Positions 5,506-46,513 of a stretch of 64,000 nt of DNA are shown here, one piece after another. Numbering within the stretch: the stretch's first letter is position 1; each line of letters opens with the position of its first letter. The DNA comes from Blastomussa wellsi (lineage: Eukaryota; Cnidaria; Anthozoa; Scleractinia; Plerogyridae). Below the pieces are notes generated by a model. That model saw only the letters and a program-made list of their open reading frames with translations. It had not been told where the DNA came from and searched no databases. Position numbers and translations under genes: made by a program. The stretch covers positions 16,464,071 through 16,528,070 of the forward strand of contig OX393565.1 in assembly GCA_947652115.1 (NCBI GenBank). Reading direction: 5' to 3'.

Positions 5506-5688
5506 GCCGCGAGTAAAAGCAACAAAACACGCATGATCGATGAACTGAAGCAATTTAATTTTGCTTCTTCTACTTTCCTCTCGAACTTAGAAGCTTCTTC
5601 GACAATCTCTGCAGCTTGACTCAGAATTTTGTCCAGAATTTTTTCATAGAAAATGTTCAACGCCATCCCTTGTGAATTTTCACGGCGT

Positions 5689-5815
5689 GAAACAAATACC
5701 ACCTCGTCGTGCAACTTTTTTCATCTTCGCCCAAGTGAAACAAGCTCGCTTTTTGCTCGCTTCTTTCACTTGGGCGAAGATGAAAAAAGTTGCACTCCGA
5801 GGTTGTATTTGTTTC
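5689..5815. repeat. Terminal palindrome (left end)
   Basis: Two 52-nt arms (5689-5740 and 5764-5815) are complementary at 49 of 52 positions and flank a 23-nt loop holding the direct repeat GCTCGCTT. The arms start GAAACAAATAC and include CTTCGCCCAAGTGAAA. The same structure, in reverse and longer, ends the right arm at 19225-19385. On the left, the outermost AGTAGTATCTCC extension of the right copy is missing. Confidence 0.9.
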
Positions 5816-6219
5816 ATGCCGGAGATACTACTTGCAGAAGAACATCTCCTGTCACGTTCAACCAATTAGACAGAAGTAGCGGAGTGCAAAAAATGCGCGG
5901 AGCAAACAACTGCGAGTGGTTGCTACGAAATCGGCAAAAGAACTGCGGCAAAAGCCGGCGCGGAAAAGGGTGTGAACCCAAGATGTGTTCAAAGCGCACG
6001 ATCAGAGCCCTCTTCCAAAATTGCCTCAACAACTTGCTGTGTTATCCGTCTGACATCGCTCTGCCAAACGGGTGTTGAAAGTTCCTTGTAACTACAGAAA
6101 ATCGTGTGGAAAAGCAGAATCATTTCAAAAAGTTCTGCCAATATTCAATTTGAGCCACGTTGGGGGCAACCCGATGTTGATTTGTCAGCATTTGGGGTTT
6201 ATAGGAGCGGAAAAAAATT

Positions 6220-8841
6220 ATGGCGACCAAATTTCAGCTACCAAATTTTGCACAAGCAGCAGCCATACAAGCAGCCAGACAACATTTTTTTTTCGCAAAT
6301 TTTTTCTCCCAAACAATTTCGAGAGCGGAAAAAAACGCCTGGGACAGCAACATCTTGCCGGACATCTCGAAAGTCGACTATATAGCAGGAAACCTCGGCA
6401 AGACACACCTGCAACCTCTGCGAGGACTGCCCACGTTTTTCGACGACATCTACGTGTTCGGCTATCTCCGCCGCGAAGACACCGTTTTCCAAAAAGGCCG
6501 CTTTTCTTGCACAACAGGCGAGGAAGGTTCTGCAAAACTCGTGGTCGCAAAAATCGGCCTCGCTGTGCTGCAGAGCCTGGGCACAGGACCGGACGGCAGC
6601 AAAAGAAAACACATGCCGACAAGCATCGTCCACACCCTCGCAAAAACAAAAGGAACCAGCGGAAGCACGATACGTGCAACAATAGCAGCGATAGAAGCCG
6701 ACACGTTGCAACAAGCACAGTCCCACTGGCACAGGCTGTATCCAGAAGACGAGATAGCGGGCTACTTCGTAACCAAGGTAGACGTTTCCGAAATATCTTT
6801 GGAAGATTTGCACGAAGCGCTGCCAGCTTTCGAACGGCAGCTGCACGCATTCAGTTTTGGAATCTACTCCATCGACTACACGCAAGATTTTTCCGGAGTG
6901 TTGGACCGCGAAGCCCTTGTTTCGCACCTAGAATTCGAAGGTTTTCGCCAGAAGGGCGACTTTTGTTCTGCAGTGGGTTCGGATGCACCAACGATTCTGC
7001 AGAACACCGACAGTGTGGGGAAGCACGTGTGCATTTGGATCTCGAAAAGAGAAGACTGCACGGTCCGGACAAAAGTATACAACAAGATCGTTTCCAACTT
7101 CGAAGCGGGCGAGATTCGAGAACCAGTGGGCGACCATCTTGCCGACTATGCAGACTGCCCAAACGAGCACTTGCGCCGAACTTTCCAACACCCAGATGTC
7201 CAAGATCGCGGATGCACCAGAATCGAAGTTTCGATATACGGGTGCCGCAGAAACGAGCTCTCGGAAGAAACAGCCGACCAGGTGCTGCAGGAAACTTTGG
7301 CAAAGGTTTCGCCGGAAGGAGAAGGTCTTTTCGTGGTCCAGCCACCAAACAAACAATGGGAAAACCTGGCTTCTTGCTTGGACCGCTGCCTCGTTTTGTC
7401 GAACCGCCCGCAAGGCCGCATATTTGTCGGCTGGTTCGCGCACACACAAACAGGAAGAATATCGGGGGTGCACGTGCAACCAACCAAAGCGAACGTTGAG
7501 GACGACGCGAAATGGGAAAATTCGGTGGTGTGGGCGGCAGCTGACTTTAATTTCCGCGCATGCCCGATTTTTCGGGTAGATATCCTTTCCACACAGGAAG
7601 AAGGTGTGGAAATAGGGCCTCTGCGTTGCTACACAAAAGACGAGGAAACGAAAACAATATTGGCGGTAAGCAAAAGGCCATGCCAGCTGCACCCAGGCGC
7701 CCCAGACACGTCTATACTTCTTCCATCGACAAAAACCGTTTCTTGGGAATGGCGGCAAACCAAATGTAGCGCTATTGGGCGAAATGTCTCCAAATTCCAG
7801 CTGCAAGAAGTGCCAGAAATCGCAGAAGAGCGGCAAATTTCGACACTTTCCACCAGATCTCGCGAAAAAGCGTTGCAAGAAATACAGGACGCGGCAAGCG
7901 CAGAAGAATGGCGAAAACGTTCTTGGGACAAACAAAGGGCCGAGCAAGATGCGAAGCGAAAAAAAGACGATCGCCGCAAAGCAGAGCTGGAGTGGGTGAA
8001 AAAAATTGTGCAATCGAAAAAGGTCTACGAACGAAAAAGCCAAGAGGTGCGGGGGATGGTGGAACAATGTTTGCGAGAATCTGCAACCTAGGTTGCGGCG
8101 CTTGCACGCGCGAAGTGGAAAGTTGTCGGCTGCAGGCAAAGAAAGGACTCCCAAAGCAAGTTTCGGGTTGTATTGGCAAACGAAGGAAAAATCGCCAATG
8201 TGTTTGCAACAAAAGCTCTGCAAAAAATTGTTTCGGAATGCCTGGACATTTTCGAAACGTCCAAAACGGACTGGTTTGGCAGAACGACTTTCTGGCTTCC
8301 TTCTTTCAGCAACGTCGAAAAGCTTGGAGGTTTGGAAATACAGATAGGGAGGCCGCAACGTTTCTGCAACAACGAAGGGACAAATATTGTATGGAACCCA
8401 ATACGTGTTGTTTCCGCCCCAGACCCGCAAAGAGCTGCAATTTTGCAAGCGATGGCAAAGGAGAGCGCAAAATACGATATTCTTCTAGAAGAGTTCGAAA
8501 AAGAAAAAGAAACGGAGTTCGAAAAAGTAGAGGCGCCGAAAAACAAGGACACAAAAAAATCGATAGACTTGCAGCCCGGCGAATACAAGTGCAAGAAGTT
8601 TGCTTACAAAACTTTTCTAAACTCTCCGCGAACCATATTGTTTGTGTTTCCGGTTGGAGAGGACGGGCAGCCAACAACAGACGACGAAACCCCAATACAA
8701 GGTTATTTTCTGGAAAAAGAGGTGGAGAATCTTGGAGGCTTCGACTTCCTCGAAAAAAGAACAACGCCATTGCTTTGCAGAATCGGGCAAGAGAGAACCA
8801 CACCACAAAAAAAGAACGACAGTCTTGCTGCTTTGGCGTAG
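6220..8841 (+). pseudogene. Gene A (left arm): candidate Rep_trans/HUH replication protein, broken by one stop
   Basis: One frame of 874 codons is interrupted by a single TAG at 8089-8091; the mirror copy has AAG there, so the stop looks secondary. About residues 213-340 resemble Rep_trans-type replication initiators of rolling-circle plasmids and phages in order and spacing: a YSIDYTQDFSG strand (D219), a GKHVCIWISKRED segment, VRTKVYNKI with a candidate catalytic Tyr287, and CTRIEVSIYG (E336). No Walker A motif, and hence no SF3 helicase, is visible. Residues about 540-615 are highly charged and probably helical. The part after the stop (codons 625-873) has no recognised domain. The true start is uncertain: the two arms differ over the first about 40 codons, and the right copy has an upstream in-frame Met. 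The domain call is inference from motif order. Confidence 0.5.
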
Positions 8842-8850
8842 AAACCATGT

Positions 8851-9276
8851 CTATTCAACAATTTGGCCGCCAGGAAGGCAGAAAACAAAATCCCCGTAGA
8901 AAGCAGCAACGAAAAGTTCTCCAAGATGCCAGGATTTCCATTTTTTCGCGTGTTCGGGGGCTATTTTGCCCACAATTGTGGCAACATTTTGGTTCTCCTT
9001 TGTTTCTGCATATTTGTAGAGAGAATCCCAATCTTCCCAATATTCCGTGTCTTCTTGTTTCTCGTACTTTGTTCTACATTCTTCGAACTGGTCGCGTCGA
9101 AAGTGTGGTAGAACACCTCTGCCGTAGACCAATTCCATTTGGAATATCTGTTGCATGTTTCTAATTGCGAGCACTCTAGTCCATTTCACAAATTCCTTTG
9201 GCCGCAGGCTGCTGTGGCTGGTTGGCCAACTGCTCCTTTTCGGGTGGCGCGGCTCTCTGCTGTTTCCACTCTTCAT
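8851..9276 (-). CDS. Gene C (left arm): unknown small protein
   Basis: This minus-strand frame of up to 141 codons converges on gene A, with 9 nt between the stops, and its 5' part overlaps the 3' end of gene D by about 100 nt. The conserved core shared with the right arm (15844-16182) runs from KWTRVLAIRNMQQIF to LPGGQIVE. It is rich in charged and aromatic residues in the middle and ends with a short hydrophobic stretch (GELFVAAFYGDFVFC). Residues before KWTRV overlap D and may not be translated; MQQIFQMEL is an alternative start. I do not recognise the family. Preservation of the reading frame in both arms argues that it is real. Confidence 0.5.
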   Translation of the reverse strand: MKSGNSREPRHPKRSSWPTSHSSLRPKEFVKWTRVLAIRNMQQIFQMELVYGRGVLPHFRRDQFEECRTKYEKQEDTEYWEDWDSLYKYAETKENQNVATIVGKIAPEHAKKWKSWHLGELFVAAFYGDFVFCLPGGQIVE

Positions 9277-9696
9277 ATTTCGGTCGCATTGTTACATACA
9301 GAAAAAGGAGGGCAGAACCAATCCCACCAACAATCCCAACAACCTGCACAACACCCCAAACAGCAGACGTTGCAGCATTGGCGGCGCGCACCACCCTGTC
9401 TGTTTGCTCTCGAACAGCATTGCCGTTCTTTTCTATGCTCTCCAGGATTCCTTTGCTATTTTGTTCCACTTCCGCTTCCAGCCCTTGCAAACCTTCCCCA
9501 ATCTCCTCCACATCTTCGAAGTGGCTTTCTTGGGTCTCCAACAACAAATCCATATTTTTCTGCAGGTCCTGCACGCCGACCAGGATCTGCGGCAGAAGAA
9601 CATCCTGCCACTTTTCGGTTTCTGCGGGCTTTGCAGCCGCGGTTTCTGCTGTTGCAGGCATTGCAGCCGCTGTTTCTGTTGTTGAAGGCCTTGCAG
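9176..9696 (-). CDS. Gene D (left arm, 5' end lost in gap): coiled-coil membrane protein
   Basis: This is the mirror copy of the gene at 9898-15857. What remains encodes part of the Ala/Thr/Glu/Pro-rich linker, a coiled-coil region (LLETQESHFEDVEEIGEG), a hydrophobic transmembrane segment (VWGVVQVVGIVGGIGSALLF) and a short basic/proline tail. The N-terminal helix-turn-helix seen in the right copy falls into the adjacent run of N. The frame is open throughout, so this copy may be intact if the missing sequence exists. Confidence 0.55.
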
Positions 9697-9896
9697 NNNN
9701 NNNNNNNNNNNNNNNNNNNNNNNNNNNNNNNNNNNNNNNNNNNNNNNNNNNNNNNNNNNNNNNNNNNNNNNNNNNNNNNNNNNNNNNNNNNNNNNNNNNN
9801 NNNNNNNNNNNNNNNNNNNNNNNNNNNNNNNNNNNNNNNNNNNNNNNNNNNNNNNNNNNNNNNNNNNNNNNNNNNNNNNNNNNNNNNNNNNNNNNN
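9697..9896. other. Assembly gap of 200 N at the palindrome centre
   Basis: Exactly 200 N separate the two arms at the point where they would meet, a round number typical of a placeholder of unknown true size. Long perfect or near-perfect palindromes are hard to read through and to assemble, which could explain the position. About 190 nt of left gene D and any central palindrome or shared promoter are missing. Confidence 0.95.
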
Positions 9897-10165
9897 AATG
9901 CCGCCTGCAAAACTGCGTTCCCCCGAAGAAATTCGAGAAATTGTCGCTGCAAGAGGCAAACTAGCACCCAGGGAGATACAAAAGAAATTCGGTATTGGCA
10001 CAACAAGGCTCTACAGAATATGGAGAGAAGCAGGCGTTCTCGTTGGAAAAACCTCCAAACCAACCGAAACAGCAGCTGCAAGGCCTGCAACAACAGAAAC
10101 AGCGGCTGCAATGCCTGCAACAGCAGAAACCGCGGCTGGAAAGCCCGCAGAAACCGAAAAGTGGC

Positions 10166-10178
10166 AGGATGTTCTTCT
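10166..10178. repeat. Target-site duplication of LINE 1 (left copy)
   Basis: AGGATGTTCTTCT occurs here and at 15427-15439, directly flanking the LINE. In the uninterrupted left arm the same sequence occurs once (minus strand, near 9590-9605), which confirms a 13-bp duplication made on insertion. Confidence 0.95.
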
Positions 10179-10455
10179 TCTTTTTTTTTATTTCATTTTT
10201 TTTTTTTATTTATTTTTTTATTATTTTTTTATTTTTTTTATTTTTATAACATCTTAAATAGGCCTGCAATCTGTACAAGGACAGGTACATTGTACATTAT
10301 GTAATCTACCTTTACTATACAGGTCTATATTTTCCAGTAGTTTTTTTACAATACGAAACTACTTACAATGTGATATTACTAACGAAACGATACTTACGAT
10401 ACTATGGATAGTTACTTACAAAGGATATTATTTACACACAGCTAGCCTCGAATAG

Positions 10456-13400
10456 TTAATTGTTTAAAAAGTTAGACCATTTTTTATTAAAAGAAGGTAG
10501 TTTATTTGTCGTGATCGCAATGTATTTTTCTAACTCAATTTTTTCGTTAACGAGGGTTATAAAATCTGTGAACTGGGGTCTTTTATTATCTTGTACTGCG
10601 TTAATGTAAAGAAAATATTTTCCAATTATGGTCAAGTGGTTTAGGGTTAAACCGGACGATGTGTGTTTTAAAACACCATAGATAATTTCATTTTGCTCCA
10701 AAGCAATGTTTCCTCTACATGAAGCGTTGTACCACCTTGTAAATTTACTCCAAAAGGATTTAGCAATTGGACATTCCACAAATAAATGGAGTGGTGTCTG
10801 ATCAATGCCATGGCAATAAGGACAATCGGGTTGTTCTTTCTTTTTCATCTTATACAGAATTTTATTTGTATACAGGATATTATGTACTATTTTATATTGG
10901 AACACGGATAATTTTACCTCATTTGTGACACAAAAAGGAAGTGAATAGATTTTTTGTCTTTCTTGAAAGGTAAAGCCGCTTTCAGTAAGTCTTCTGTCGG
11001 CAGTTGGAGGAGGGAAGTGCTGGTGATTGAGTAAAGTATTGTAAATTGTTTTGCATGTGAGCTTTTCGATTGCAAGTGGTACATATTCAGTTGACGGTAA
11101 AAGACATTCCTGCTTTAGCATAGTTTTCCATTCCTGTGGTATTGCAGATAGAAGGCTGTAATACTGTAAAAAATTACTCTTGACATTGTATTTCTGCATG
11201 AAGGTTTTAAAAGGCATCAAGGTGTTACTTTCGTAGTCGAAAAGGCACGAGAGACTTTCAATGCCGACTTTTTTCCAACCAGGGAGAAAAACCGATAGCT
11301 TATTTACTCGAATAAACTGATTATTCCATATTCTTTGGTTAAGCACGTCTCCTTTTGTTTTCGGATTAGTGCTATTAATTTTCTGCCAGTGGGAAATTAT
11401 ATCACGGTAGAATTTTGGTAAGTTTTCATTCAGGGGTAGATATTGAATGTCATAGTTACACCGGAAAAGAAGGTTGCCGCCAACGCTGGAAAGTAAGGAT
11501 AGTGGGATAAATTTCCATGGTCTTTTATCGTTAGCGCACAAGCGCTTTACCCAGACTATTTTTAACGCTTTATCAAATAGCGTAAAATCTAGCATATTAA
11601 GTCCCCCCTCGTTCTTATTTTTAATTATAGTCGTTTTTTTGAGTTTTGGATTCTTGTACTTCCATATGTAATCAAAAATTATGTTGTTTACTTCATCGGT
11701 AAACCCTTTTGGAGTGTCTAACACGCTGCAGATAAAAGTTAGTTTGGATATTGCCAAGGTTTTGACAATATTTACTCTTCCGTATATAGATATGTCTCGA
11801 GATGACCAAATGTTGAGTGTCTTTTTAAGTTTAGGCAACTTTTCAAAGAAGTTTTTTTTTTGTGGCAAGTTCTTCATCATATGAAAAATATACACCTAAA
11901 GCGTAGACAGACTCATCGCTTAATTTTAAATTTAGAATGGAATCGTTTCTCTGACGTAATGATCCCAGCCAAAGTATCTCTGATTTAGATTGATTTATTC
12001 GGAGACCAGAACAGTTTTCAAATTGTTGCAGCAGATCAAAAAGCCTATGTACGGATCGAATATCTTTAACAAAAACCGTTGTGTCATCGGCGTACTGGGT
12101 TATTTTTATAGAGTTATTTGGGTCAATTTCAATGCCTTCTATTTCTCTTGAGCGTTTAATTGCGTTACTTAAAATTTCTACTCCAATAACAAACAAGATC
12201 CCAGATAATGGGCAGCCCTGCCTGACACCTCTACTTAGATTAAAATGTTTGGTGGCAAAGCCATTGTTCAGAACACAACTTGATATGTTATTATACAAGA
12301 CTGTGATCCATTGTCGTAATTGAGGTCCAAAGTTAAAAACTTCAAGGCATTTTTGAAGGTAGCTCCATTCAATAGAATCGAAAGCTTTTTCAAAATCAAG
12401 AAAGACCGCTACACCTGGAATGTTCTTCTTTTTAGTGAAGGACATCATATCTGTTATGATTCTGATGCTCTCACCTATATATCTTCCCTTTACGTATCCT
12501 GTTTGATCCGGGCTGATAATCATGGGCAGCACTTTTTCCAAGCGTAAAGCTAACGCCTTTGTGACAATTTTGTAGTCGTTGTTCAATAGGGAGATTGGTC
12601 TCCAATTTTTGAGGTATTTTTTGTCTTTGTCTTTCTTTGGTATCAACGATATTATACCGCGTTTTTGTGAGATTGACATGTCTCCATTCTCAAAGGCATA
12701 ATTAAAGCTATCGACCATGATTTGACCGATGGCATTCCAGAAGAACCGATAAAATTCAATAGTAAAGCCATCGGAACCAGGTGTTTTATTATTCTTAAAT
12801 TGTTTTAGCGAGTTGGTACATTCCGCAAGCGTGAGCAGCCCTTCGCAGGTGTCCGCTTCTTCTTGTTTGAGAGTATTCAGGCCATCAAAAAAGTGCTCGA
12901 AATTGGCAGATTTTGGACATACATTTTTAGCTTGATAAATTTCTTTGAAAAAACGTTCCTCCTCTTCTAAAATTAATTTAGGCTCATGGACTACGTTGCC
13001 GTCTTCTTTTGTTAATGAGGTTATGTGTTTCTTCTTGTGATTCATTTTTTCCAAGTTGTAGAAATATTTATTGTTCTTTTCACCAAACTCGTACCATTGT
13101 GCTTTACTACGTGTCATTGTTCCTCGTGTTTTTCTAGAGACAATCCTTGATAATTCTTTTTTGACACGATCCATTTCAACTTTCGTTGCTTCGCTAAAGT
13201 TTGATCTAATCTGTTCTTGTAATTGGTTGAATCTCATAAGCAAATCTTTTTCTTCGTTTCGTTTTTGTTTAGCTTTATTTTTAGCGAAAATTATTGTCGA
13301 CGCTCTAATTTCCATTTTGATCATTTCCCAAAATAAGCCTTTATCACTGAGGCTGGAATATTTGGAGAGGAACTCTGGTATTTGTTTTGTTATCATCTCC

Positions 13401-14194
13401 GTATAATACTTACCCGTCAACAATGAATTATTAAATTTCCAGAATCCGGGGCCGCGCTCTGTTTCATTACTTTCTAAGGACATTGATAGGGTTATAGCGG
13501 AGTGATCAGAAAAAATGTTAGGCACAATTTTAGCGGTTTGAATTACGGACTCCATGCTTTTTGATATAAAAAGGTAGTCTAATCTACAATGGATTTTCAT
13601 GGATGGATTATTCCACGTGAAAGCTTGTTTATTTGGGTGTTTGCAGCTCCAGGTGTCAATAAGATCGTGAGTTCTCATTAGAGTTTTCATTTCTTGAATA
13701 ACTGTTTTCTTTTGTTCGAAAGAGCGCCCTCCGCGTTTATCAATTTCATTCAAAACACAATTTAAGTCTCCCGCTAGGACCACTCTTTCGCCGGCATATT
13801 TGTTTAAAACGGAGTTCGATAACCCTCTAAGGAATTGCACTTGTTGAGTTTGATCATTCGGTGCGTAAATATTTAGCAAAACAAGTTTCTCGCCGTCTAA
13901 CACTGCTTCGGAAAGGATATATCTACCATTCCTGTCGCATATAATTTGTTCGATGTTTACATCAATTTTTGGCTTGAATAAAATCATTACCCCCCGACTG
14001 TGATTAGTGCCATGACTTCCAATCATTTTACCACCCCATTCTGCTTCCCACGATTTTAAGTTTTGCGCAGAAGAATATGTTTCTTGTAAAAATATTACAT
14101 CCGATTTTTGCTGATGCAGCCATCGAAATATTTGACGTCGCTTAATCGTCTTGTTTAACCCTCGAACATTCAGAGATAAAACATTGAAAACCAT
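10456..14194 (-). pseudogene. LINE ORF2: AP endonuclease plus reverse transcriptase, one frameshift
   Basis: The first frame (14194 to 11843, 783 codons) starts with the APE-type endonuclease (NVLSLNVRGLNK, FLQETY, GDLNC, LDYLFIS, DHSAI) and continues into RT with TPGSDGFTIEFYR, motif A FLDFEKAFDSIEW, motif B RGVRQGCPLSG and motif C YADDTTVF. It shifts frame at a long T run at 11849-11859 (an A run in the sense strand) and continues to 10456 (479-residue frame overlapping the first) with the RT thumb and the C-terminal zinc-knuckle-like region (CPYCHGIDQTPLHLFVEC). Total length, about 1250 residues, is normal for L1/Tx1-type ORF2. A homopolymer slip or a sequencing error at that run is the only lesion I see. 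Confidence 0.85.
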
Positions 14195-14444
14195 ACGTAC
14201 GTGTCAGATAACATAAAACGCAGTTTCCAGTCAACAGATTTCATTGTGGGCATGTGAGTCGGTAGGCATGTGAATTTAGGACTAGCAAGAGACAATTTAA
14301 AGCAATCGAGAAACAAACCAATACAAACTAATACCACATACAGCACTAAACAAAAATACCTGCAGCAATTGCGGCGAATTCTCCTGTCTGAGATTCACGT
14401 AAGCCTTCCTACTGCTCTACAGAGGCACTAAATAATTAACAAAA

Positions 14445-15353
14445 TTAACTATTGTCCATGATTCGACCATAGAGTGTGAATTTTTTGGTTTCGGGTCCTC
14501 GGTAAACAACTTTGTCAATGATTAGCTTTTCGACGTTGAAGAAAGCCGTTTTGTGATCCCTCTTTGCCTTTTTCAGCACCGGGTAAAGCTCTTTTCTTAT
14601 ATCATCCACTTCTTTCGGGAAGTCATCAGCCACACCGAAACCTTTCCCTCTTGGCAGTTGCTTGATGTGCGATTTGATTTGTTGCTTATCTTTGAAGAAG
14701 GATACCTTGGCAATTATCGGTCTTGGGTGCTGATTTATTCTTTCCTCGCGTACTCGGGTTGGAATTCTGTAAACCCTCTCGAATTCAATTTCATCAAGGT
14801 GCTTCTTTGGAATTTTCATTTCTCTGTGAAGAAACGCTCTCAGAACTGCTTCTGTGTCTTCTGAGGATTCTTGTTCATTATCGCTAATACCGAAGAATTT
14901 GATGTTGTTTCTTCTGTTAAAGCATTCTTGTTTGACAACCCTGCGTTCTAGCTCATCTAGTTTGACTATCTTATCAGTTGCTGCTTTCAATTCCGCCGCG
15001 GTCACGCCGGCCTGTTGCTTCAAAGCTTCAACTTCTGCTTGTGTTGATTCGAGACTCTCCTTAAGCTCTTCCTTTTCATTCTTAAGCGTTGCTACTTCGA
15101 TCTTCAAGTTTTGTATTTCAGGTAAAACAGATAGCAATTTATCGAGCTTGCCTTGTATCTCTTCTAGCTTCGTGTTGCACATCACACAGCCATGTTCGTG
15201 TTGCTCGCCATCACCGATGGCTTCCTCCTCATCAGTATGAGATGATCGTGCTCGTATTCTTTTTCTTCTTCGGGCCTCTCTTTTGCTTGTAGAGTTCTCG
15301 TTTGATTCATCGACCTCTTCATGGGTTATTACGTTGTCCGCCTCTGTAGGCAT
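14445..15353 (-). CDS. LINE ORF1 protein (302 aa)
   Basis: The start is taken at the Met of MPTEADN, because upstream codons in the same frame belong to the inserted-into gene and the LINE 5' UTR. The protein has a basic N-terminus (SKREARRRKRIRARS), a CxxC pair (CVMCN), a long coiled coil (about residues 85-160) and an RRM/CTD-like C-terminal half typical of L1-type ORF1 (NNIKFFGI through FERVYRIPT, then RPIIAKVSFFKDK). It binds element RNA and chaperones target-primed reverse transcription. The frame is open throughout. Confidence 0.8.
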   Translation of the reverse strand: MPTEADNVITHEEVDESNENSTSKREARRRKRIRARSSHTDEEEAIGDGEQHEHGCVMCNTKLEEIQGKLDKLLSVLPEIQNLKIEVATLKNEKEELKESLESTQAEVEALKQQAGVTAAELKAATDKIVKLDELERRVVKQECFNRRNNIKFFGISDNEQESSEDTEAVLRAFLHREMKIPKKHLDEIEFERVYRIPTRVREERINQHPRPIIAKVSFFKDKQQIKSHIKQLPRGKGFGVADDFPKEVDDIRKELYPVLKKAKRDHKTAFFNVEKLIIDKVVYRGPETKKFTLYGRIMDNS

Positions 15354-15426
15354 TTTGGCTTTTATAGAGACGAAGGCGGAGCTTTGTTGAACACGTCCGC
15401 CATCTTTCGCGTCCCTCGTGATCTCT

Positions 15427-15439
15427 AGGATGTTCTTCT
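15427..15439. repeat. Target-site duplication of LINE 1 (right copy)
   Basis: Same AGGATGTTCTTCT as at 10166-10178, at the LINE 5' end. Confidence 0.95.
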
Positions 15440-15843
15440 GCCGCAGATCCTGGTCGGCGTGCAGGACCTGCAGAAAAATATGGATTTGTTGTTGGAGACC
15501 CAAGAAAGCCACTTCGAAGATGTGGAGGAGATTGGGGAAGGTTTGCAAGGGCTGGAAGCGGAAGTGGAACAAAATAGCAAAGGAATCCTGGAGAGCATAG
15601 AAAAGAACGGCAATGCTGTTCGAGAGCAAACAGACAGGGTGGTGCGCGCCGCCAATGCTGCAACGTCTGCTGTTTGGGGTGTTGTGCAGGTTGTTGGGAT
15701 TGTTGGTGGGATTGGTTCTGCCCTCCTTTTTCTGTATGTAACAATGCGACCGAAATACGAAGAGTGGAAACAGCAGAGAGCCGCGCCACCCGAAAAGGAG
15801 CAGTTGGCCAACCAGCCACAGCAGCCTGCGGCCAAAGGAATTT

Positions 15844-16182
15844 GTGAAATGGACTAGAGTGCTCGCAATTAGAAACATGCAACAGATATTCCAAATGGAA
15901 TTGGTCTACGGCAGAGGTGTTCTACCACACTTTCGACGCGACCAGTTCGAAGAATGTAGAACAAAGTACGAGAAACAAGAAGACACGGAATATTGGGAAG
16001 ATTGGGATTCTCTCTACAAATATGCAGAAACAAAGGAGAACCAAAATGTTGCCACAATTGTGGGCAAAATAGCCCCCGAACACGCGAAAAAATGGAAATC
16101 CTGGCATCTTGGAGAACTTTTCGTTGCTGCTTTCTACGGGGATTTTGTTTTCTGCCTTCCTGGCGGCCAAATTGTTGAATAG
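15844..16182 (+). CDS. Gene C (right arm): unknown small protein
   Basis: Mirror copy of 8851-9276, with the conserved core KWTRVLAIRNMQQIF to LPGGQIVE. The frame opens at a GTG here; the first ATG in frame is that of MQQIFQMEL, so translation may start there. It overlaps the last codons of gene D (stop at 15857) and ends 9 nt before the end of the converging gene A copy. No domain is recognised. Confidence 0.5.
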   Translation: MKWTRVLAIRNMQQIFQMELVYGRGVLPHFRRDQFEECRTKYEKQEDTEYWEDWDSLYKYAETKENQNVATIVGKIAPEHAKKWKSWHLGELFVAAFYGDFVFCLPGGQIVE

Positions 16183-16191
16183 ACATGGTTT

Positions 16192-18953
16192 CTACGCCAA
16201 AGCAGCAAGACTGTCGTTCTTTTTTTGTGGTGTGGTTCTCTCTTGCCCGATTCTGCAAAGCAATGGCGTTGTTCTTTTTTCGAGGAAGTCGAAGCCTCCA
16301 AGATTCTCCACCTCTTTTTCCAGAAAATAACCTTGTATTGGGGTTTCGTCGTCTGTTGTTGGCTGCCCGTCCTCTCCAACCGGAAACACAAACAATATTG
16401 TTCGCGGAGAGTTTCGAAAAGTTGTGTAAGCAAACTTCTTGCACTTGTATTCGCCGGGCTGCAAGTCTATCGATTTTTTTGTGTCCTTGTTTTTCGGCGC
16501 CTCTACTTTTTCGAACTCCGTTTCTTTTTCTTTTTCGAACTCTTCTCGAAGAATATCGTATTTTGCGCTCTCCTTTGCCATCGCTTGCAAAATTTCAGCT
16601 CTTTGCGGGTCTGGGGCGGAAACAACACGTATTGGGTTCCATACAATATTTGTCCCTTCTTTGTTGCAGAAACTTTGCGGCTTCCCTATCTGTATTTCCA
16701 AACCTCCAAGCTTTTCGACGTTGCTGAAAGAAGGAAGCCAGAAAGTCGTTCTGCCAAACCAGTCCGTTTTGGACGTTTCGAAAATGTCCAGGCATTCCGA
16801 AACAATTTTTTGCAGAGCTTTTGTTGCAAACACATTGGCGATTTTCCCTTCGTTTGCCAATACAACCCAAAATTTGCTTTGGGGGTCCTTTCTTTGCCTG
16901 CAGCCGACAACTTTCCACTTCGCGCGTGCAAGCGCCGCAACCTTGGTTGCAGATTCTCGCAAACATTGTTCTACCATCCCCCGCAACTCTTGTCTTTTTC
17001 GTTCGTAGACCTTTTTCGATTGCACAATTTTTTTCACCCTCTCCAGCTCTGCTTTGCGGCGATCGTCTTTTTATCGCTTCGCATCTTGCTCGGCCGTTTG
17101 TTTGTCTTAAGAACGTCTTCGCCATTCTTCTACGCTTGCCGCGTCCTGTATTTCTTGCAACGCTTTTTCGCGAGATCTGGTGGAAAGTGTCGAAATTTGC
17201 CGCTCTTCTGCGATTTCTGGCACTTTTTGCAGCTGGAATTTGGAGACATTTCGCCCAATAGCGCTACATTTGGTTTGCCGCCATTCCCAAGAAACGGTTT
17301 TTGTCGATGGAAGAAGTATAGACGGGTCTGGGGCGCCTGGGTGCAGCTGGCGTGGCCTTTTGCATGCCGCCAATATTGTTTTCGTTTCCTCGTCTTTTGT
17401 GTAGCAACGCAGAGGCCCTATTTCCACACCTTCTTCCTGTGCGGAAAGGATATCTACCCGAAAAATCGGGCATGCGCGGAAATTAAAGTCGGCTGCCGCC
17501 CACACCACCAATTTTCCCATTTCGCGTCGTCCTCCACGTTCGCTTTGGCTAGTTGCACGTGTACCCCCGATATTCTTCCTGTTTGTGTGTGCGCGAACCA
17601 GCCGACAAATATGCGGCCTTGCGGGCGGTCCGCCAAAACGAGGCAGCGGTCCAGGCAAGAAGCCAGGTTTTCCCATTGTTTGTTTGGTGGCTGGACCACG
17701 AAAAGATCTTCTCCTTCCGGCGAAACCTTTGCCAAAGTTTCCTGCAGCACCTGGTCGGCTGTTTCTTCCGAGAGCTCGTTTCTACCGCACCCGTATATCG
17801 AAACTCCGATTCTGGTACATCCGCGATCTTGGACATCTGGGTGTTGGAAAGTTCGGCGCAAGTGCTCGTTTGGGCAGTCTGCATAGTCGGCAAGATGGCC
17901 GCCCACTGGTTCTCGAATCTCGCCCGCTTCGATGTTGGAGATGATCTTGTTGTATACTTTTGTCCGGACCGTGCAGTCTTCTCTTTTCGAGATCCAAATG
18001 CACACGTGCTTCCCCACACTGTCGGTGTTCTGCAGAATCGTTGGTGCATCCGAACCCACTGCAGAACAAAAGTCGCCCTTCTGGCGAAAACCTTCGAATT
18101 CTAGGTGCGAAACAAGGGCTTCGCGGTCCAACACTCCGGAAAAATCTTGCGTGTAGTCGATGGAGTAGATTCCAAAACTGAATGCGTGCAGCTGCCGTTC
18201 GAAAGCTGGCAGCGCTTCGTGCAAATCTTCCAAAGATGTTTCGGAAACGTCTACCTTGGCCACGAAGTAGCCCGCTATGTCGTCTTCTGGATACAGCCTG
18301 TGCCAGTGGGACTGTGCCTGTTGCAACGTGTCGGCTTCTATCGCTGCTATTGTTGCACGTATCGTGCTTCCGCTGGTTCCTTTTGTTTTTGCGAGGGTGT
18401 GGACGATGCTTGTCGGCATGTGTTTTCTTTTGCTGCCGTCCGGTCCTGTGCCCTGTCTCTGCAGCACAGCGAGGCCGATTTTTGCGACCACGAGTTTTGC
18501 AGAACCTTCCTCGCCTGTTGTACAAGAAAAGCGGCCTTTTTGGGAAACGGTGTCTTCGCGGCGGAGATAGCCGCACACGTAGATGTCGTCGACAAACGCG
18601 GGAAGTCCTCGCAGAGGTTGCAGGTGTGTCTTGCCGAGGTTTCCTTCTAGATAGTCGACTTTCGAGATGTCCGGCAAGAGGTTGCTGTCCCAGGCGTTCT
18701 CGAGAAGAAGATGGGAGGCCACGTTTTTTTCGCAACGGAGACCCATGCTTTCGAATGTTTTTTTGCACTGCCATTTGTAGCTGTAGGATTTTTTGTTGTC
18801 GAAATATGCAAATATTTTTTTTGTCTGGCTTCTGCTTGTGCAAACTTGGTAGCTGAAATTTGGTCGCCATAATTTTTTTCCGCTCCTATAAACCCCAAAT
18901 GCTGACAAATCAACATTGACAGAACTTTGTGAAATGATTCTGCTTTTCCACAC
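16192..18953 (-). pseudogene. Gene A (right arm): candidate Rep_trans/HUH protein, frameshifted
   Basis: Mirror copy of 6220-8841. The first frame (18953 to 17454) includes an N-terminus absent from the left copy (FAYFDNKKSYSYKW) and the complete putative HUH region (IDYTQDFSG, KVYNKI, CTRI). A one-base loss near 17510, relative to the left arm, shifts the frame. The gene continues in the 17676-17107 frame, meets nonsense codons around 17040-17110, and resumes as an open 281-codon frame (17037 to 16192). That last frame reads through the place where the left copy has TAG, so the two arms carry different, complementary damage. Confidence 0.5.
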
Positions 18954-19224
18954 GATTTTCTGTATTTACAAGGAACCTTCAACACCCGTTTGGCAGAGCG
19001 AGGTCAGACGGATAACACAGCAAGTTGTTGAGGCAATGTCGGAAGAGGGCTCTGATCGTGCGCTTTGAACACATCTTGGGTTCACACCCTTTTCCGCGCC
19101 GGCTTTTGCCGCAGTTCTTTTGCCGATTTCGTAGCAACCACTCGCAGTTGTTTGCTCCGCGCATTTTTTGGACTCCGCCACTTCTGTCTAATTGGTTGAA
19201 CGTGACAGGAGATGTTCTTCTACA

Positions 19225-19385
19225 AGTAGTATCTCCGGCATGAAACAAATACAACCTCGGAGTGCAACTTTTTTCATCTTCGCCCAAGTGAAAGAAGCGA
19301 GCAAAAAGCGAGCTTGTTTCACTTGGGCGAAGATGAAAAAAGTTGCATGACGAGGTGGTATTTGTTTCATGCCGGAGATACTACT
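19225..19385. repeat. Terminal palindrome (right end)
   Basis: Two arms of 69 nt (19225-19293 and 19317-19385) pair almost perfectly around a 23-nt loop. The ends read AGTAGTATCTCCGGCATG and its complement. This is the outer end of the right arm and the longer counterpart of 5689-5815. Size and shape recall hairpin telomeres of parvovirus-like or other hairpin-ended linear genomes, though foldback transposons can look similar. Confidence 0.9.
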
Positions 19386-38953: not shown

Positions 38954-40711
38954 ATGAAGGAAGAGAGGACGGCGCTAAAAAATCTTAGTAAGCGCAAAGA
39001 CATAATTATCAAAGCGGCCGACAAAGGCGGCGCTTTAGTTGTTTGGCGGGCCGACCTCTACCAAAAAGAAGCTTTGCGGCAACTTTCTGACACCTCTTTT
39101 TATGCTAAAGTCGACAAAGATCTCACCTCCACTAACCAACAAATTGTCAAGAGCACTATTAACGACCTTATAGTCAAACAAGAATTGCCGGCTACTGCTA
39201 CCAATCTCATCATTACCACTCCCAGAACCTCGTGTATTTACTTTTTACCTAAAATTCACAAACCTAACAACCCAGGTCGACCTATCGTCTCTGCCTGTAG
39301 TTGCCCTACCGAACTCATTTCCAGCTATTTAGACAAAATTATGGCACCTATTGTCAGATCTTTACCGTCATACGTTAAAGACAGTCAACACGCACTTCAA
39401 ATTTTTCGCGATTTCAATTTCCTGGGCGAAGACAAACTTATTTTCACTATGGATATTACATCTCTTTACACCGTCATCCCAAATGGCGAAGGTCTTCTAG
39501 CCCTCAAACATTTTTTTGATTTACGCACTGTTAAGGAACCAAGCTCGGAAACACTACTCCGCCTGGCTGAGTTAGTGTTAACACTCAACTGTTTTTCATT
39601 CGCGAACAATTATTACAAACAAATCAATGGCGTGGCCATGGGTACCAAAATGGGACTCAGCTACGCCAATCTTTTCGTAGGCTACATTGAACACCAATTT
39701 TTCAATCAATACAACGGCCCAAAACCTGAACTCTATCGTCGCTACATTGACGACTGCATCGGCGCTACCTCTTCTACCAGAGAAGATCTTAATCAATTTA
39801 TAACCGCTGTTAATTCGTTTCATCCTGCCCTTAAATATACCTGGGAAATTTCCGATACTTCCTTAGCATTCCTGGATATCAAAGTTTCTATCGAAGGCAA
39901 CAGTTTATGCACCAGTGTGCACTACAAACCCACAGATTCTCATAGCTATTTGTTGTATTCATCTTCACATCCATCACATGTCAAGAATTCCATTCCTTAT
40001 TCTCAGTTTCTTAGACTTCGCCGTCTTTGTAGTGACGACTCTGATTTTTCCTTAAAATCAGAGGAAATGTGCAATTTCTTCGACAAACGCGATAGAATTC
40101 CATTCACCCTCACATTCCACCCTCACAACCACGCAGTTAAATCCATCATTCTCAAAAACTTTAAATTACTTCAAAATGATCCCGACACTGGTAGAATCTT
40201 TTCGCAACCTCCATTAATTTCATTTAAACGCGACAAAAACATAGGTAACTTTTTAGTCAGAAGTGCATTCCAAACTAGTGATCAACCCGGAACTTTTAAA
40301 TGCGCTCGCGCACGATGCAAAACATGCCCTTTCATTCACAACGTTGACAAAATATCGGGACCCAAGCGATCTATCAAAATCACTGATCATTTCACCTGTA
40401 CCTCAGCCAATGCCATCTACTGTATAACTTGCACTCTTTGCAAAAAGTTATACATCGGCGAAACAGGGAGACGACTTGGCGACCGATTCCGAGAACACCT
40501 TCGTGACGTAGAGAAAGACGACAAAAATGCATCGAAACCGGTCGCGAGACACTTCAATCTCCCAAATCATTCTAAGTAACATACGGCAGTCTGCGGCCTT
40601 TCCCTTCACCAAGGAAACACGGAAAGCCGTAAAACTCTAGAACAAAAATTTATTTTTCAAATCGGCACTCTTAATCCTCACGGTATCAACGAACGCTTTT
40701 CATTCAACTAA
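38954..40711 (+). pseudogene. Penelope-like RT with GIY-YIG endonuclease
   Basis: The RT core has motif A FTMDITSLYTVIP, motif B GVAMGTKMGLSYANLF and motif C YIDDCIG. A cysteine-bearing linker (CARARCKTCPFIH) leads to the GIY-YIG domain: AIYCITCTLCKKLYIGETGR, then LGDRFREHL and a distal Asn/His region (FNLPNHSK). A TAA at 40577-40579 cuts the last 44 codons; the frame continues open to 40711. The N-terminus is missing by 5' truncation. Penelope enzymes prime reverse transcription at nicks made by the GIY-YIG domain. Confidence 0.85.
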
Positions 40712-40800
40712 TTTATTCCGAAGTTTTCACGTTACCAGGCACCAGCCAATAGCGAAGCTCCATCTTTCTGTATATAAAGACACACGACGCACAATTCCTT

Positions 40801-40848
40801 GATTCGCTCCGACGAAGGGCTAACGCTCGAAACGTCAGCACTTGAATC
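40801..40848 (+). ncRNA. Hammerhead-ribozyme-like motif (type I, minimal)
   Basis: Order of parts: stem I strand GATTC-GCT (40801-40808); core CCGACGA (40809-40815), in place of CUGANGA with C for U at position 4; stem II GGGC/GCTC with loop TAAC (40817-40828); GAAAC (40829-40833); GTC (40834-40836); stem I strand AGC-ACTT-GAATC (40837-40848). Stem III is only C-G/A-U without a loop, the minimal form known from Penelope-like elements, which act best as dimers. An extra A precedes stem II. Cleavage would follow GTC. Recognition is by eye. Confidence 0.7.
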
Positions 40849-41680
40849 TCTTTACGGTGGCCAATTGACATTATCAACCCAGTTGATAAAACCAAATTAA
40901 ATTGAAAATAAGCAGAGTGCAAATAACAAAATTACGTGGATCATCCTCTGTGAAAAGAAGAAGTTACACAGCGGAAGAACAAAAGAAACTGACACAGGAA
41001 ATACTAGCTGATATGGAAAGAAAAAGTTTCACAGCGGAAGAACTAAAAAAACTGACACAGGAAATACTAGCTGATATGAAGGCAGGAAAAGGTTTACAAG
41101 TTGACCCATTCACTAATTTTCAAATGGGGACATCAAGAAGAGCACCCAGGAGACGTCGAAGAAACCTTCCCACATCATCAACTAATAAATCTCCAGGTGG
41201 TGGACAACTTATATTAAGACCACCACCAGTAATTGGAATGTGGCCAAATGGAGAAATGCCTTTGAAGTTGAAGCGTGGTAGGAAAAAAAAACTAATGTTT
41301 CCATTAGAAAATAAACCATTAAGCAACTTCAACCTAATGGATTGGTTGGATTACCTTGGAGTGAAAATAAAAGGTATTTTCATGAGAGATGAACACATGC
41401 CAAGCAAGCATTCCCCATGCATCATTAACCTTGATGACAAAGTAGGCATAGGAACCCATTGGGTTTGTTGTGTGCCTAATGGTGTAAATAAGTTATATTA
41501 TTTCGATTCTTTTGGAATGCATTATCCAGAAGAATATAAATCAAGCAATTATAAAATAAAAATCAAATACAACATAAATATAGTGTATTATGTGGTTATT
41601 ACTGTCTTTATTTCCTAGAGAGAACTCAAACTTTCAAGGAATCACCACATCAAGCATTATACTCAATAATGAAAAATTCA

Positions 41681-41929
41681 TTAGAAATTACTTTGAACAA
41701 ATTTATTGAAATTCGAGAAATTTATCCTTGCTATAAAACTAACTTTATTAAAAATTCCATGGCTAATTCCACAGTCAATACATTTAATTAATGACTTATA
41801 AAACCCCTTCTTAGTCTCATCACCCATATCCTTAGGGATCGACCAGTCATTCTTCTTGTAAAATCTCTTAAGCATGTCATTATAATTCAATTTCATGATT
41901 TTATAAATTTCTTTATCGTTTATTTTCAT
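41681..41929 (-). CDS. Small Polinton protein (82 aa), copy 1
   Basis: Basic, helical protein (MKINDKEIYKIMKLNYNDML). It begins next to a long hairpin at 41957-42034 and ends beside the protease 3' end, converging with it. No family recognised. Identical copy at 46238-46486. Confidence 0.5.
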   Translation of the reverse strand: MKINDKEIYKIMKLNYNDMLKRFYKKNDWSIPKDMGDETKKGFYKSLIKCIDCGISHGIFNKVSFIARINFSNFNKFVQSNF

Positions 41930-41956
41930 ATTATATTAATTGTGTAGATAATTTCA

Positions 41957-42034
41957 TTAAACGTAAAAAAGCCCATTATTTATTAATCCGCTGACTTGAC
42001 TTCTAGATTAATAAATAATGGGCTTTTCGTTTAA
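41957..42034. terminator. Long perfect hairpin between two minus-strand genes, copy 1
   Basis: Arms 41967-41987 and 42007-42027 are perfectly complementary over 21 bp (core AAGCCCATTATTTATTAAT) with a 19-nt loop, and pairing continues outward (TTAAACG/CGTTTAA). It lies just past the stop of the Cys-rich gene (42031) and before the start of the 82-aa gene. The position suits a transcript-end or mRNA-stability structure, but a replication role is equally possible. Copy 2 lies at 46514-46591. Confidence 0.55.
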
Positions 42035-42309
42035 TTTTTGAACTTGTCATAAAATTCAAATCTGAAACATTTGTCACAAATTCCAACGTCGTTATCTTTA
42101 CAAACGTGACATAATTCCATTCTTTTTCCACATTTTAAACAAAGAAATCGAGAATCAATACATCTATGACATAGAAAATGACCTTTCATACAAAAATCAC
42201 ATTCAAAATAATATTTAAATTTTAAACAATCCAAACAATAATTCAGCAGAGAATCACATTCATCACAGGATTCATTATATCTTTGATCACATTCTTCACA
42301 TATTTTCAT
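42031..42309 (-). CDS. Cys-rich zinc-binding protein (92 aa), copy 1
   Basis: About 19 cysteines in 92 residues, arranged as CxxC/CxxH pairs: CEECDQRYNESCDECDS, CLDCLKF, CDFCMKGHFLCHRC, CLKCGKRMELCHVC and CDKCF. The spacing is that of several tandem treble-clef or RING/B-box-like knuckles. Likely a zinc-binding regulator or protein-interaction factor; no family named. Identical copy at 46588-46866. Confidence 0.6.
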   Translation of the reverse strand: MKICEECDQRYNESCDECDSLLNYCLDCLKFKYYFECDFCMKGHFLCHRCIDSRFLCLKCGKRMELCHVCKDNDVGICDKCFRFEFYDKFKN

Positions 42310-42378
42310 AATTTTGATATTTTTTAATATTTTTATTCATGCAATATTCACAAATGATCATAACTATATATTTAATTA

Positions 42379-42642
42379 CTAAATTAAATTTTCATTTTTA
42401 ACGAAAGTGTAAATATTAGCAAATGGATTTTTCTCTGTTTTCAGGAAATAAGAAAAATCAGATTCTGATTTTTTTAACCCAGCAATGAAATAACTATATT
42501 TTTGAGGTGCGCAAAATTGATTTTCTTTATAAAGGCTGTTCATCCATTTTTCATTGAAGTAAGCTTTTCTAACTTTAACTCCAAGTTCTTTATGCCATTT
42601 TCTAATAATTTTATTAAATTCCTTTTTTTCTTCCTTATTCAT
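42379..42642 (-). CDS. Small Polinton protein (87 aa), copy 1
   Basis: The start is taken at the Met of MNKEEKKEFNK, whose ATG overlaps the end of the upstream gene (42635-42823); the frame is open further upstream but only over that gene. Basic and aromatic (KAYFNEKWMNSLYKENQF). Unknown. Copy at 46936-47199. Confidence 0.45.
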   Translation of the reverse strand: MNKEEKKEFNKIIRKWHKELGVKVRKAYFNEKWMNSLYKENQFCAPQKYSYFIAGLKKSESDFSYFLKTEKNPFANIYTFVKNENLI

Positions 42643-42823
42643 GAGACAGTGAATTACAAGGAGTCTCTGATGATGTATAATCAATAATGATTTTATTTTT
42701 CTTTACTCTCGCAAATAATTTAATTAATCTTGCTTCATATTTCTTGTAAGGTGGAATATTTAATTTATTTCTTAATTTCATTAATTTTAAATAACACTTT
42801 GACTTATAATTAAAAAATACCAT
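42635..42823 (-). CDS. Small Polinton protein (62 aa), copy 1
   Basis: Basic protein (FNYKSKCYLKLMKLRNKLNI) whose last codons overlap the next gene's start, suggesting coupled or alternative expression, or that the two were once one gene split by a frameshift. Copy 2, at about 47192-47380, has an A/T difference that puts a stop close to its start. Confidence 0.4.
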   Translation of the reverse strand: MVFFNYKSKCYLKLMKLRNKLNIPPYKKYEARLIKLFARVKKNKIIIDYTSSETPCNSLSHE

Positions 42824-42950
42824 TATATAATAACTATATTTTTTTTTCTTTAAGACAAACGCACTTAACTATAAAATTATATTTCATTTTTATAATTTTA
42901 TTAAATATATGTTTCAAAAAATTATTTCACTCTTACCGTTTCATTCAATT

Positions 42951-43241
42951 TCACTCGATATAAGAAATTTGCGTCATAGCATTATTATTTAATATAACAA
43001 TTGTGTTGAATTTTCTGATGTGATTTTCCAATTTTGTTTTATCAACATTCATAATTAAAGCCCTTTTATCAAGAGTTTGCATTAACTCGCAATACAAATT
43101 CATTTTTTCTGTGAGCGTTTCATATCTGGGGTCATTCTCGTCACCATACTTAATGGTTTCATTTAAATAATCCTCAAAGTATGTGCTGGTAATTTTCTCA
43201 ATTTCTTTTTTTATATCTGAACAACAAAAATTATAATACAT
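42951..43241 (-). CDS. Small Polinton protein (96 aa), copy 1
   Basis: Helical, acidic/basic mix (KKEIEKITSTYFEDYLNETI, KYGDENDPRYETL). It starts 22 bp from the plus-strand frame that opens at 43263, so the two are divergent. A decayed relative lies near the right end of the element (55134-55400). Copy 2 at 47508-47798 differs by an N/F substitution near the C-terminus. Confidence 0.5.
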   Translation of the reverse strand: MYYNFCCSDIKKEIEKITSTYFEDYLNETIKYGDENDPRYETLTEKMNLYCELMQTLDKRALIMNVDKTKLENHIRKFNTIVILNNNAMTQISYIE

Positions 43242-43349
43242 GCTTTTTTATATAATAACTATATGTTTTTTATTTTCATTTTAAACGCACCTGACTTAAC
43301 TATGACCCTATATTTTATCCAATATATAGTTATGTGTATTATAACTGAT

Positions 43350-43667
43350 ATGTTTAACAAATTTTACCCAGCAACACCCGAGCTCCCCCCAGAGCCATGT
43401 TGCCCCGATAAACAAGTGACCTATGACAATTATATTTACGTTTGTTCATCCTGTGGCCTCATACAATCCTATGATATGATCAACGACCATTATGAAGGAT
43501 TTTATCAAAATATGTACAAATATCAGCGTAAATCTATTTACAATCGCAAGTACCACTTAGATAACACCCTTCGCGACATACGTAACAAACACCACATAAT
43601 TTTCACCACCGAAGAACTCCAAACCATCAATGCAACATTTTCAGAAATTGAATCAGCATTTAAGAAA
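43350..43667 (+). pseudogene. VLTF3-like zinc-ribbon protein, truncated copy 1
   Basis: Identical to the first 106 codons of 47907-48455 apart from two or three substitutions, then cut at the duplication junction and run out of frame into Penelope sequence (stop at 43730). Confidence 0.8.
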
Positions 43668-43741
43668 TCGACAAAGATCTCACCTCCACTAACCAACAAA
43701 TTGTCAAGAGCACTATTAACGACCTTATAGTCAAACAAGAA

Positions 43742-45268: not shown

Positions 45269-45357
45269 TTTATTCCGAAGTTTTCACGTTACCAGGCACC
45301 AGCCAATAGCGAAGCTCCATCTTTCTGTATATAAAGACACACGACGCACAATTCCTT

Positions 45358-45405
45358 GATTCGCTCCGACGAAGGGCTAACGCTCGAAACGTCAGCACTT
45401 GAATC
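45358..45405 (+). ncRNA. Hammerhead-ribozyme-like motif, copy 2
   Basis: Exact repeat of 40801-40848 within unit 2. With both copies on one strand, a read-through transcript would carry two motifs 4557 nt apart. Confidence 0.7.
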
Positions 45406-45455
45406 TCTTTACGGTGGCCAATTGACATTATCAACCCAGTTGATAAAACCAAATT

Positions 45456-46175: not shown

Positions 46176-46237
46176 AGAGAACTCAAACTTTCAAGGAATC
46201 ACCACATCAAGCATTATACTCAATAATGAAAAATTCA

Positions 46238-46486
46238 TTAGAAATTACTTTGAACAAATTTATTGAAATTCGAGAAATTTATCCTTGCTATAAAACTAAC
46301 TTTATTAAAAATTCCATGGCTAATTCCACAGTCAATACATTTAATTAATGACTTATAAAACCCCTTCTTAGTCTCATCACCCATATCCTTAGGGATCGAC
46401 CAGTCATTCTTCTTGTAAAATCTCTTAAGCATGTCATTATAATTCAATTTCATGATTTTATAAATTTCTTTATCGTTTATTTTCAT
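46238..46486 (-). CDS. Small Polinton protein (82 aa), copy 2
   Basis: Identical to the protein at 41681-41929. Confidence 0.5.
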   Translation of the reverse strand: MKINDKEIYKIMKLNYNDMLKRFYKKNDWSIPKDMGDETKKGFYKSLIKCIDCGISHGIFNKVSFIARINFSNFNKFVQSNF

Positions 46487-46513
46487 ATTATATTAATTGT
46501 GTAGATAATTTCA

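Follow-up and report, generated by a model that had tools for sequence, protein, structure and literature searches.

Background

Parvovirus and bidnavirus genomes carry terminal hairpins, and parvoviruses form head-to-head dimers during replication; these viruses encode an HUH nickase with a helicase, or PolB, along with a capsid gene. Helitrons and Replitrons are eukaryotic mobile elements that are driven by a replication-type tyrosine nickase (HUH) and are not known to have long inverted arms or a 5-bp duplication. Foldback-type transposons possess very long inverted repeats able to snap back; their arms are not known to carry genes for a replication-type protein, and their duplications have other lengths. 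Here we analyze a stretch of 64,000 nucleotides (hereinafter, the window) from the scleractinian coral Blastomussa wellsi (GenBank assembly GCA_947652115.1, contig OX393565.1, positions 16,464,071 to 16,528,070 of the forward strand) and describe a gene-bearing palindromic element located at positions 5683 to 19385 of the window. With moderate confidence, we favor the view that this element belongs to a family of palindromic satellites that integrate via ends of the Maverick type and replicate their hairpins by means of their own Rep_trans-like nickase.

Two groups of described systems are the most relevant for comparison. For vertebrate Mavericks, the accessible part of one report (PMC8097293) gives (AGT)2//(ACT)2 as the commonest end motif, along with target duplications of 6 bp. 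The Rep_trans initiators have been described as exclusively bacterial, with an archaeal relative reported in 2026; in that account (PMC13107129), the Rep-Arvir initiators are characterized by a Rep_trans-like fold recognizable by structure only and by a hairpin origin. Our literature search, in which subscription journals were thinly covered, yielded no eukaryotic Rep_trans protein and no palindromic Maverick satellite.

Architecture of the element

The element consists of two inverted arms that face each other across an assembly gap and terminate in palindromes:

5683..5832, no strand: left terminal palindrome (self-match over 5683-5821, and hairpin fold; relative to the right end, its outermost bases have degenerated or are missing)
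5683..9696, + strand: left arm, as far as the assembly gap (self-comparison)
9697..9896, no strand: assembly gap of exactly 200 N, at the mirror center
15427..19385, - strand: outer part of the right arm (self-comparison)
19225..19385, no strand: right terminal palindrome, AGTAGTA...TACTACT (near-complete hairpin predicted)
6220..8841, + strand: gene A, left copy, encoding a putative Rep_trans-like protein (about 870 codons in one frame, interrupted by an in-frame stop at 8089-8091)
16216..18870, - strand: gene A, right copy (reading frame disrupted by a shift and by stops)

Comparison of the window with itself yielded four inverted pairs, namely 5683-6150/18907-19374 (97%), 6334-7522/17510-18698 (97%), 7515-9606/15427-17518 (98%) and 9594-9696/10076-10178 (98%), which bears out the gene-bearing palindrome with hairpin-forming ends that was reported in the initial annotation of this DNA. 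The right arm runs from 19385 to 15427 and continues, past an insertion described below, from 10178 towards 9897. When a replaced segment near 6249-6333 is excluded, the arms differ at 75 of the 3789 aligned bases and by four indels and therefore are two genuine sequences. No mutual match between the outer flanks of the element is listed in the self-comparison. The window element is one old, decayed copy of its family.

Elsewhere in the window, positions 39107-48225 hold two tandem copies of a 4.56-kb unit that are 99.8% alike and show negative GC (guanine-cytosine) skew. The segment 31001-55000 is low in GC, with mostly negative skew (minimum -0.54), unlike the remainder of the window.

A multicopy family of palindromes in the host genome

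A search of the host genome (367.8 Mb in 124 contigs) detected at least 81 matches to gene A (71 of the 1081 candidates were scored), some of which are pieces of one copy. We retrieved 20 loci, 7 with two facing A matches and 13 among the best single matches; together with the window, 12 of the 21 loci are palindromic in A, a proportion that is biased by the choice of loci. Among the 13 single-match loci, four (L040, L041, L042 and L044) are palindromic as well and nine are not. Four palindromes (L030, L031, L040 and L041) contain no N, and in the remaining 8 of the 12, the window included, a 200-N gap separates the arms. According to the match tables, the gapless copies have lost sequence near the center, which fits the notion that perfect centers are hard to assemble.

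The locus L028 represents a deep subfamily that differs by 35% from the rest. Its architecture is that of the other copies, its arms diverge from each other by 2.2%, and it contains a 34-nt perfect palindrome between the start of gene D (see below) and a facing piece of D. An internally deleted copy, L033, retains both ends. Two further loci located 50 kb apart, L038 and L042 (C1:28612179 and C1:28661945), show equal identity to the window A (91.417%) and may reflect a segmental duplication.

Terminal hairpins, target duplications and ends shared with Maverick-type elements

Complete ends of the main type start with AGTAGTA, and the hairpins that they form measure about 80-325 nt; the predicted energy of the right-end hairpin of the window is -78.8 kcal/mol (DNA parameters), and one end, that of L030, folds poorly (-9.0). 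To quantify the pairing, 11 main-type hairpins were compared, 5 from A-type copies (of the 16 hairpins folded) and 6 from Maverick-type elements. In 32 of the 71 pairs, both partners have changed in at least one case with the pairing preserved. The individual cells comprise 83 such double changes, 46 broken pairs, 9 G-T pairs, 571 unchanged pairs and one gap; in the control, with partners slid by 3, 230 of the 679 cells pair. The loop motif is alike in 10 of the 11 hairpins, the exception being L041. Two ends of A-type copies have unusual forms: a 325-nt terminal hairpin, double the usual size, with a nested insert-like loop (L036, 941-1265), and two adjacent terminal hairpins, as if the end had been duplicated (L034, 882-1193).

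Two readable ends are available for 8 of the 21 A-type loci (13 lacked them), and an exact 5-bp target duplication flanks 6 of these 8 (L028, L033, L040, L044, L041 and L029; the right ends of the last two were placed by eye after inspection). The two loci without an exact duplication are the window, where the left end is degenerate, and L026, where 4 of the 5 bases agree. A cross-locus control (13 loci) produced 0 matches in 156 comparisons. Two loci, L044 and L029, have ends other than the main AGTAGTA type.

The terminal hairpin itself yielded at least 79 matches in the host genome (40 of 193 candidates scored), with most hairpins found in both directions, and among these are six inverted pairs spaced by 12-15.6 kb. 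None of the listed A matches falls inside these six hairpin-bounded intervals, and tblastn detected no A in one Maverick-type element of 14.5 kb. Reading the inner pieces of five of the six elements, we identified PolB in two (L059, 7e-8; L058, 1.2e-7) and a Pox_A32-type packaging ATPase, above the cut-off in L046 (3.5e-9) and weak in L060 (0.024). The Maverick-type elements also carry an open reading frame (ORF) with at least 122 matches listed in the genome, which may be of the Maverick major-capsid type. No integrase was detected in the Maverick-type ORFs scanned, which cover parts of the elements. A GIY-YIG nuclease ORF lies between two polymerase-like stretches in one Maverick-type element (L046, 4608-5453), and in the region C9:11814422-11874963 the capsid-like ORF is listed six times in steps of about 12 kb, resembling a tandem array of Maverick-type elements.

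The first 282 bp of the window arm match the ends of five Maverick-type elements at 80-94% identity (the matches at L049, L051, L052, L056 and L057 are partial, with less sequence fetched or matched), and in the sixth element both ends match at 86-87%. An exact 5-bp duplication is present at 3 of the 5 Maverick-type loci (C20, C19 and C4); of the other two, C10 agrees in 4 of 5 bases and C15:116159 lies in a TAA repeat, where a 6-base TAATAA fits as well. The sixth pair, C15:9543178, lacks a clean right end and is not part of this count. A second type of end, ACACAC, found in L044, has at least 89 matches (40 of 304 candidates scored); one inverted pair of these (C2:16036164/16053837) brackets a capsid-like match and is flanked by the 5-bp duplication GACCT. 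Two types of ends on A-type copies, each in common with a Maverick-type element, are what would be expected if a satellite captured ends.

The search for further copies that the initial annotation called for changes the view of the element. Instead of the isolated replicon that had been considered, we find a multicopy, integrated family with 5-bp target duplications and with ends shared with Maverick/Polinton-type elements that carry viral-type genes. The alternative offered at that time, a transposon with gene-bearing inverted repeats, describes the integrated form too.

Gene A and its predicted fold

In the initial annotation, gene A was divided into two genes, A and C. This division does not hold: the left arm contains one frame (6220-8841) with a single in-frame stop, and many homologs, among the 120 relatives listed, are single proteins of about 860 amino acids. 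The two window copies carry different stops, and the left copy has a replacement in its N-terminal coding part, around 6249-6333. Altogether, we detected 170 relatives at an E-value of 0.001 or better (5.8 billion proteins searched, 7996 candidates scored); among the 120 listed, few are named, namely those from Elysia crispata, Actinostola and a Thiodiazotropha bin.

The N-terminal domain of A is predicted to adopt a TBP-like fold (predicted local distance difference test, pLDDT, 90), and it is followed by C-terminal coiled-coil and strand-rich domains:

6376..7380, + strand: catalytic domain of A, with a predicted TBP fold (Asp 6442/6445, Asp 6874 and 6886, Lys-x-Tyr-x-Lys 7072-7086, Arg-x-Glu 7219-7227)

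Structures of RepSTK1 and RepDE are among the top matches of this domain in structure comparison, and its first match in BFVD is an inovirus replication protein (E 4.7e-4). The motif residues of Rep_trans, which include a catalytic Tyr between basic residues and three acidic metal ligands (reference residues from PMC4797284), have equivalents in A in the same order and on separate predicted strands; this order was matched in 0 of 20000 shuffles. In an alignment of 75 of the 120 listed relatives with the window sequence (45 rows were dropped), the equivalents of the Tyr, Lys, Asp, Asp and Glu residues are conserved, with at most one exception each, among the rows that are not gapped at the position. 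In the model, Asp53/54 and Asp197/201 are candidate metal ligands. Taken together, these features suggest that the N-terminal domain of A has a TBP fold with the residues of the bacterial Rep_trans initiators, as predicted by modeling.

The profile comparison proposed in the initial annotation revealed no homology of A to Rep_trans (PF02486), neither with the family model or profile nor in a profile-profile test, and it is structure prediction that instead gave the TBP-like fold. The PDB sequence search returned weak matches only (E 0.18 or worse), and the best match in PHROGs had an E-value of 0.017. Pattern-based scans of IMG/VR and GTDB contigs for A or D, and a tblastn search of phage records for A, all of which can miss relatives, found none, so that no bacterial or viral source of A or D was identified in these collections. 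Two other identities for A were considered and dropped. An H-W-H triplet had prompted the idea of an HUH nickase, and the predicted fold and conserved residues point elsewhere; for a Replitron or Helitron identity, no link was found, the literature search giving passing mentions only.

Kinship and decay of the arms

We constructed a tree of A from 11 palindromic loci (22 arms) together with 9 single copies, leaving out L042 on account of its short, divergent left piece of A. For 19 of the 22 arms, the closest sequence is the partner arm, and the three exceptions (L029_R, L031_R and L044_R) differ by 0.002. In the tree, the two arms of a locus are sisters in all 11 pairs, with support of 0.86-1.0. 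The head-to-head dimer advanced in the initial annotation fits this result, in that sister arms would be expected if each copy starts as such a dimer.

Within loci, the differences between arms are distributed over the three codon positions as 276:211:205. Comparisons of deep subfamilies show a predominance of third-position changes (204:179:351 and 191:164:340), and between close loci the positions are even (for example, 29:34:32), as for decayed copies; therefore, it is only at the level of deep subfamilies that purifying selection can be seen. The two arms seem to be alike when an insertion arises and to decay afterwards, with the family under selection over longer times. In the window, the D/E region (8851-9606 compared with 15427-16182) differs at only 1 of 756 positions, versus 62 of 2499 in A, and gene conversion near the center may account for this low divergence.

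Gene D, ORF E and the inserted LINE

The other features of the element are the following:

9176..9696, - strand: gene D, left copy, truncated at the gap (visual inspection suggests a coiled coil and a membrane segment)
9898..10178, + strand: gene D, right copy, first part (on visual inspection, the start resembles a helix-turn-helix, with no match in Pfam; the LINE splits the gene)
15440..15857, + strand: gene D, right copy, second part
8851..9276, - strand: ORF E, left copy (without homolog; may not be a gene)
15844..16182, + strand: ORF E, right copy
10179..15426, - strand: LINE (long interspersed nuclear element), a later insertion foreign to the element (coiled-coil ORF, endonuclease, reverse transcriptase)

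Gene D starts next to the center and reads outward, convergent with A; by eye, its product has a helix-turn-helix-like start, a coiled coil and a membrane segment, and no Pfam match is above the cut-off. We found 24 relatives of D. On contigs longer than 20 kb, 12 of 14 D rows (10 of 12 distinct contigs) pair with an A-bearing contig, when contigs of equal size are taken as identical and 39 of the 120 A rows are compared. A word-based search with the right copy of ORF E as the query found no homolog, and therefore the overlap of genes is not secure; of the converging and overlapping genes noted originally, the convergence of D and A stands and the overlap is doubtful. The LINE in the right arm encodes a reverse transcriptase (RVT_1, 5e-39) and an endonuclease (1e-19; Pfam) and is flanked by a 13-bp duplication (10166-10178/15427-15439).

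In agreement with the original observation, the Pfam matches of the element's own ORFs include no transposase domain (of the DDE or tyrosine-recombinase kind) or capsid domain, and all of them are below the family cut-offs. Nor did Pfam reveal a polymerase, PolB, packaging ATPase, integrase or HUH/superfamily 3 helicase domain in the A-type ORFs. A Pfam scan of whole frames with X at stops lost a PolB match that the ORF scan had given, and because the same method missed PolB, the whole-frame scan is uninformative.

Proposed mechanism and alternative explanations

The anatomy described above can be read directly, and the mechanism that we favor for it, that of a palindromic satellite with Maverick-type ends, is inferred. 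A would be a tyrosine nickase of the Rep_trans type that opens the terminal hairpin and yields a 3' end for DNA synthesis, with strand displacement after the nicking. Fold-back at the hairpin end would copy one arm onto the other, producing a head-to-head dimer with identical arms. The dimer would then be integrated by an enzyme that recognizes Maverick-type ends, most simply a Maverick integrase acting in trans, and once integrated, the arms would decay independently. Gene D may encode a regulator or a membrane anchor. In a bolder version of this scheme, which we put forward tentatively, a third, eukaryotic lineage of the Rep_trans type drives a rolling-hairpin palindromic parasite of Maverick viruses that swaps ends between Maverick families; A may also integrate both elements, making up a two-component viral system.

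The same family might be an autonomous transposon in which A is both the nickase and the integrating enzyme, a new tyrosine transposase that makes 5-bp duplications, with the Mavericks having taken over its ends or both elements using A. The abundance of A (at least 81 matches listed, including pieces that belong to one copy), the 5-bp duplications on both kinds of elements, and the lack of a retroviral-type integrase among those Maverick-type genes that were scanned in part are all compatible with this possibility. We nevertheless consider it unlikely, given that (AGT)2//(ACT)2 is the commonest Maverick end motif in vertebrates (PMC8097293, in the part consulted) and that A-type copies have two unlike termini (L028/L040 and L044), each common to a Maverick-type element.

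Another explanation starts from an ancestral, fixed palindrome, the arms of which have been kept alike by gene conversion after insertion rather than by copying during replication. Intrachromosomal palindromes undergo gene conversion, and the nearly identical D/E regions in the window (1/756, compared with 62/2499 in A) point in this direction. However, the arms of a locus differ at all codon positions (276:211:205), and the two window copies of A have different stops; therefore, conversion has not kept A alike since insertion, and this account of the family appears distinctly improbable.

We give little credence to a two-segment virus, in which the A-type palindrome and the Maverick-type element would together make up one genome and A would act in replication or end resolution for both. 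Such a virus would explain why ends and duplication length are shared, why tblastn shows no A in the 14.5 kb element and none of the listed A matches falls in the six hairpin-bounded intervals, and why the A-type ORFs show no polymerase or capsid domain. The second terminus, on L044 and L029, suggests end capture by a parasite and not a fixed pair, and few of the at least 122 matches to the capsid-like ORF are listed beside AGTAGTA ends.

Finally, the head-to-head joining of two contigs ending in repeat copies, an assembly artefact for which the 200-N gap between the arms in the window and in seven further palindromic loci (of 11 read) could be adduced, is refuted for the family, and has a negligible probability, because four other palindromes (L030, L031, L040 and L041) have no gap, target duplications span whole palindromes (L028, L040, L041 and L044) and the arms are sisters in 11 of 11 tested loci; the window copy itself holds a central gap.

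Comparison with known systems

A eukaryotic counterpart of the Rep_trans enzymes would place this second, non-HUH route to rolling-circle initiation in all three domains of life, and would provide a context for a set of unnamed proteins of invertebrate genomes and metagenomes, 170 of which were detected here. To our knowledge, a palindromic satellite with Maverick ends would be the first parasite of this kind in Mavericks. Its many integrated copies would let dimer formation, arm decay and end swapping be read directly.

Like the parvoviruses and bidnaviruses, the elements described here have hairpin ends, and unlike them, the A-type ORFs contain no HUH nickase, helicase, PolB or capsid domain detectable with Pfam. 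The resemblance to Mavericks/Polintons extends to the (AGT)2//(ACT)2 ends, inverted termini and short target duplications, and the sister elements of 12-15.6 kb in the same host carry PolB and packaging ATPase domains in the pieces read and share the terminal 280 bp. In contrast to Mavericks, no Maverick core domain was found in the A-type ORFs and the element is a gene-bearing palindrome; the duplication is 5 bp, compared with the 6 bp given for vertebrate Mavericks (PMC8097293, in the part cited above). With the Rep_trans initiators of pT181-type plasmids, filamentous phages and MOBT relaxases, A shares the predicted TBP-like fold and the residue order D, D-x3-D, [RK]-x-Y-x-K, R-x-E, and a stem-loop would be the likely substrate of A; it differs from them in the lack of detected sequence homology, in the additional C-terminal domains and in the eukaryotic host. 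The Rep-Arvir initiators, which belong to archaeal viruses and plasmids, appear similar to A in the type of fold and in the hairpin, a likeness drawn from their published description (PMC13107129).

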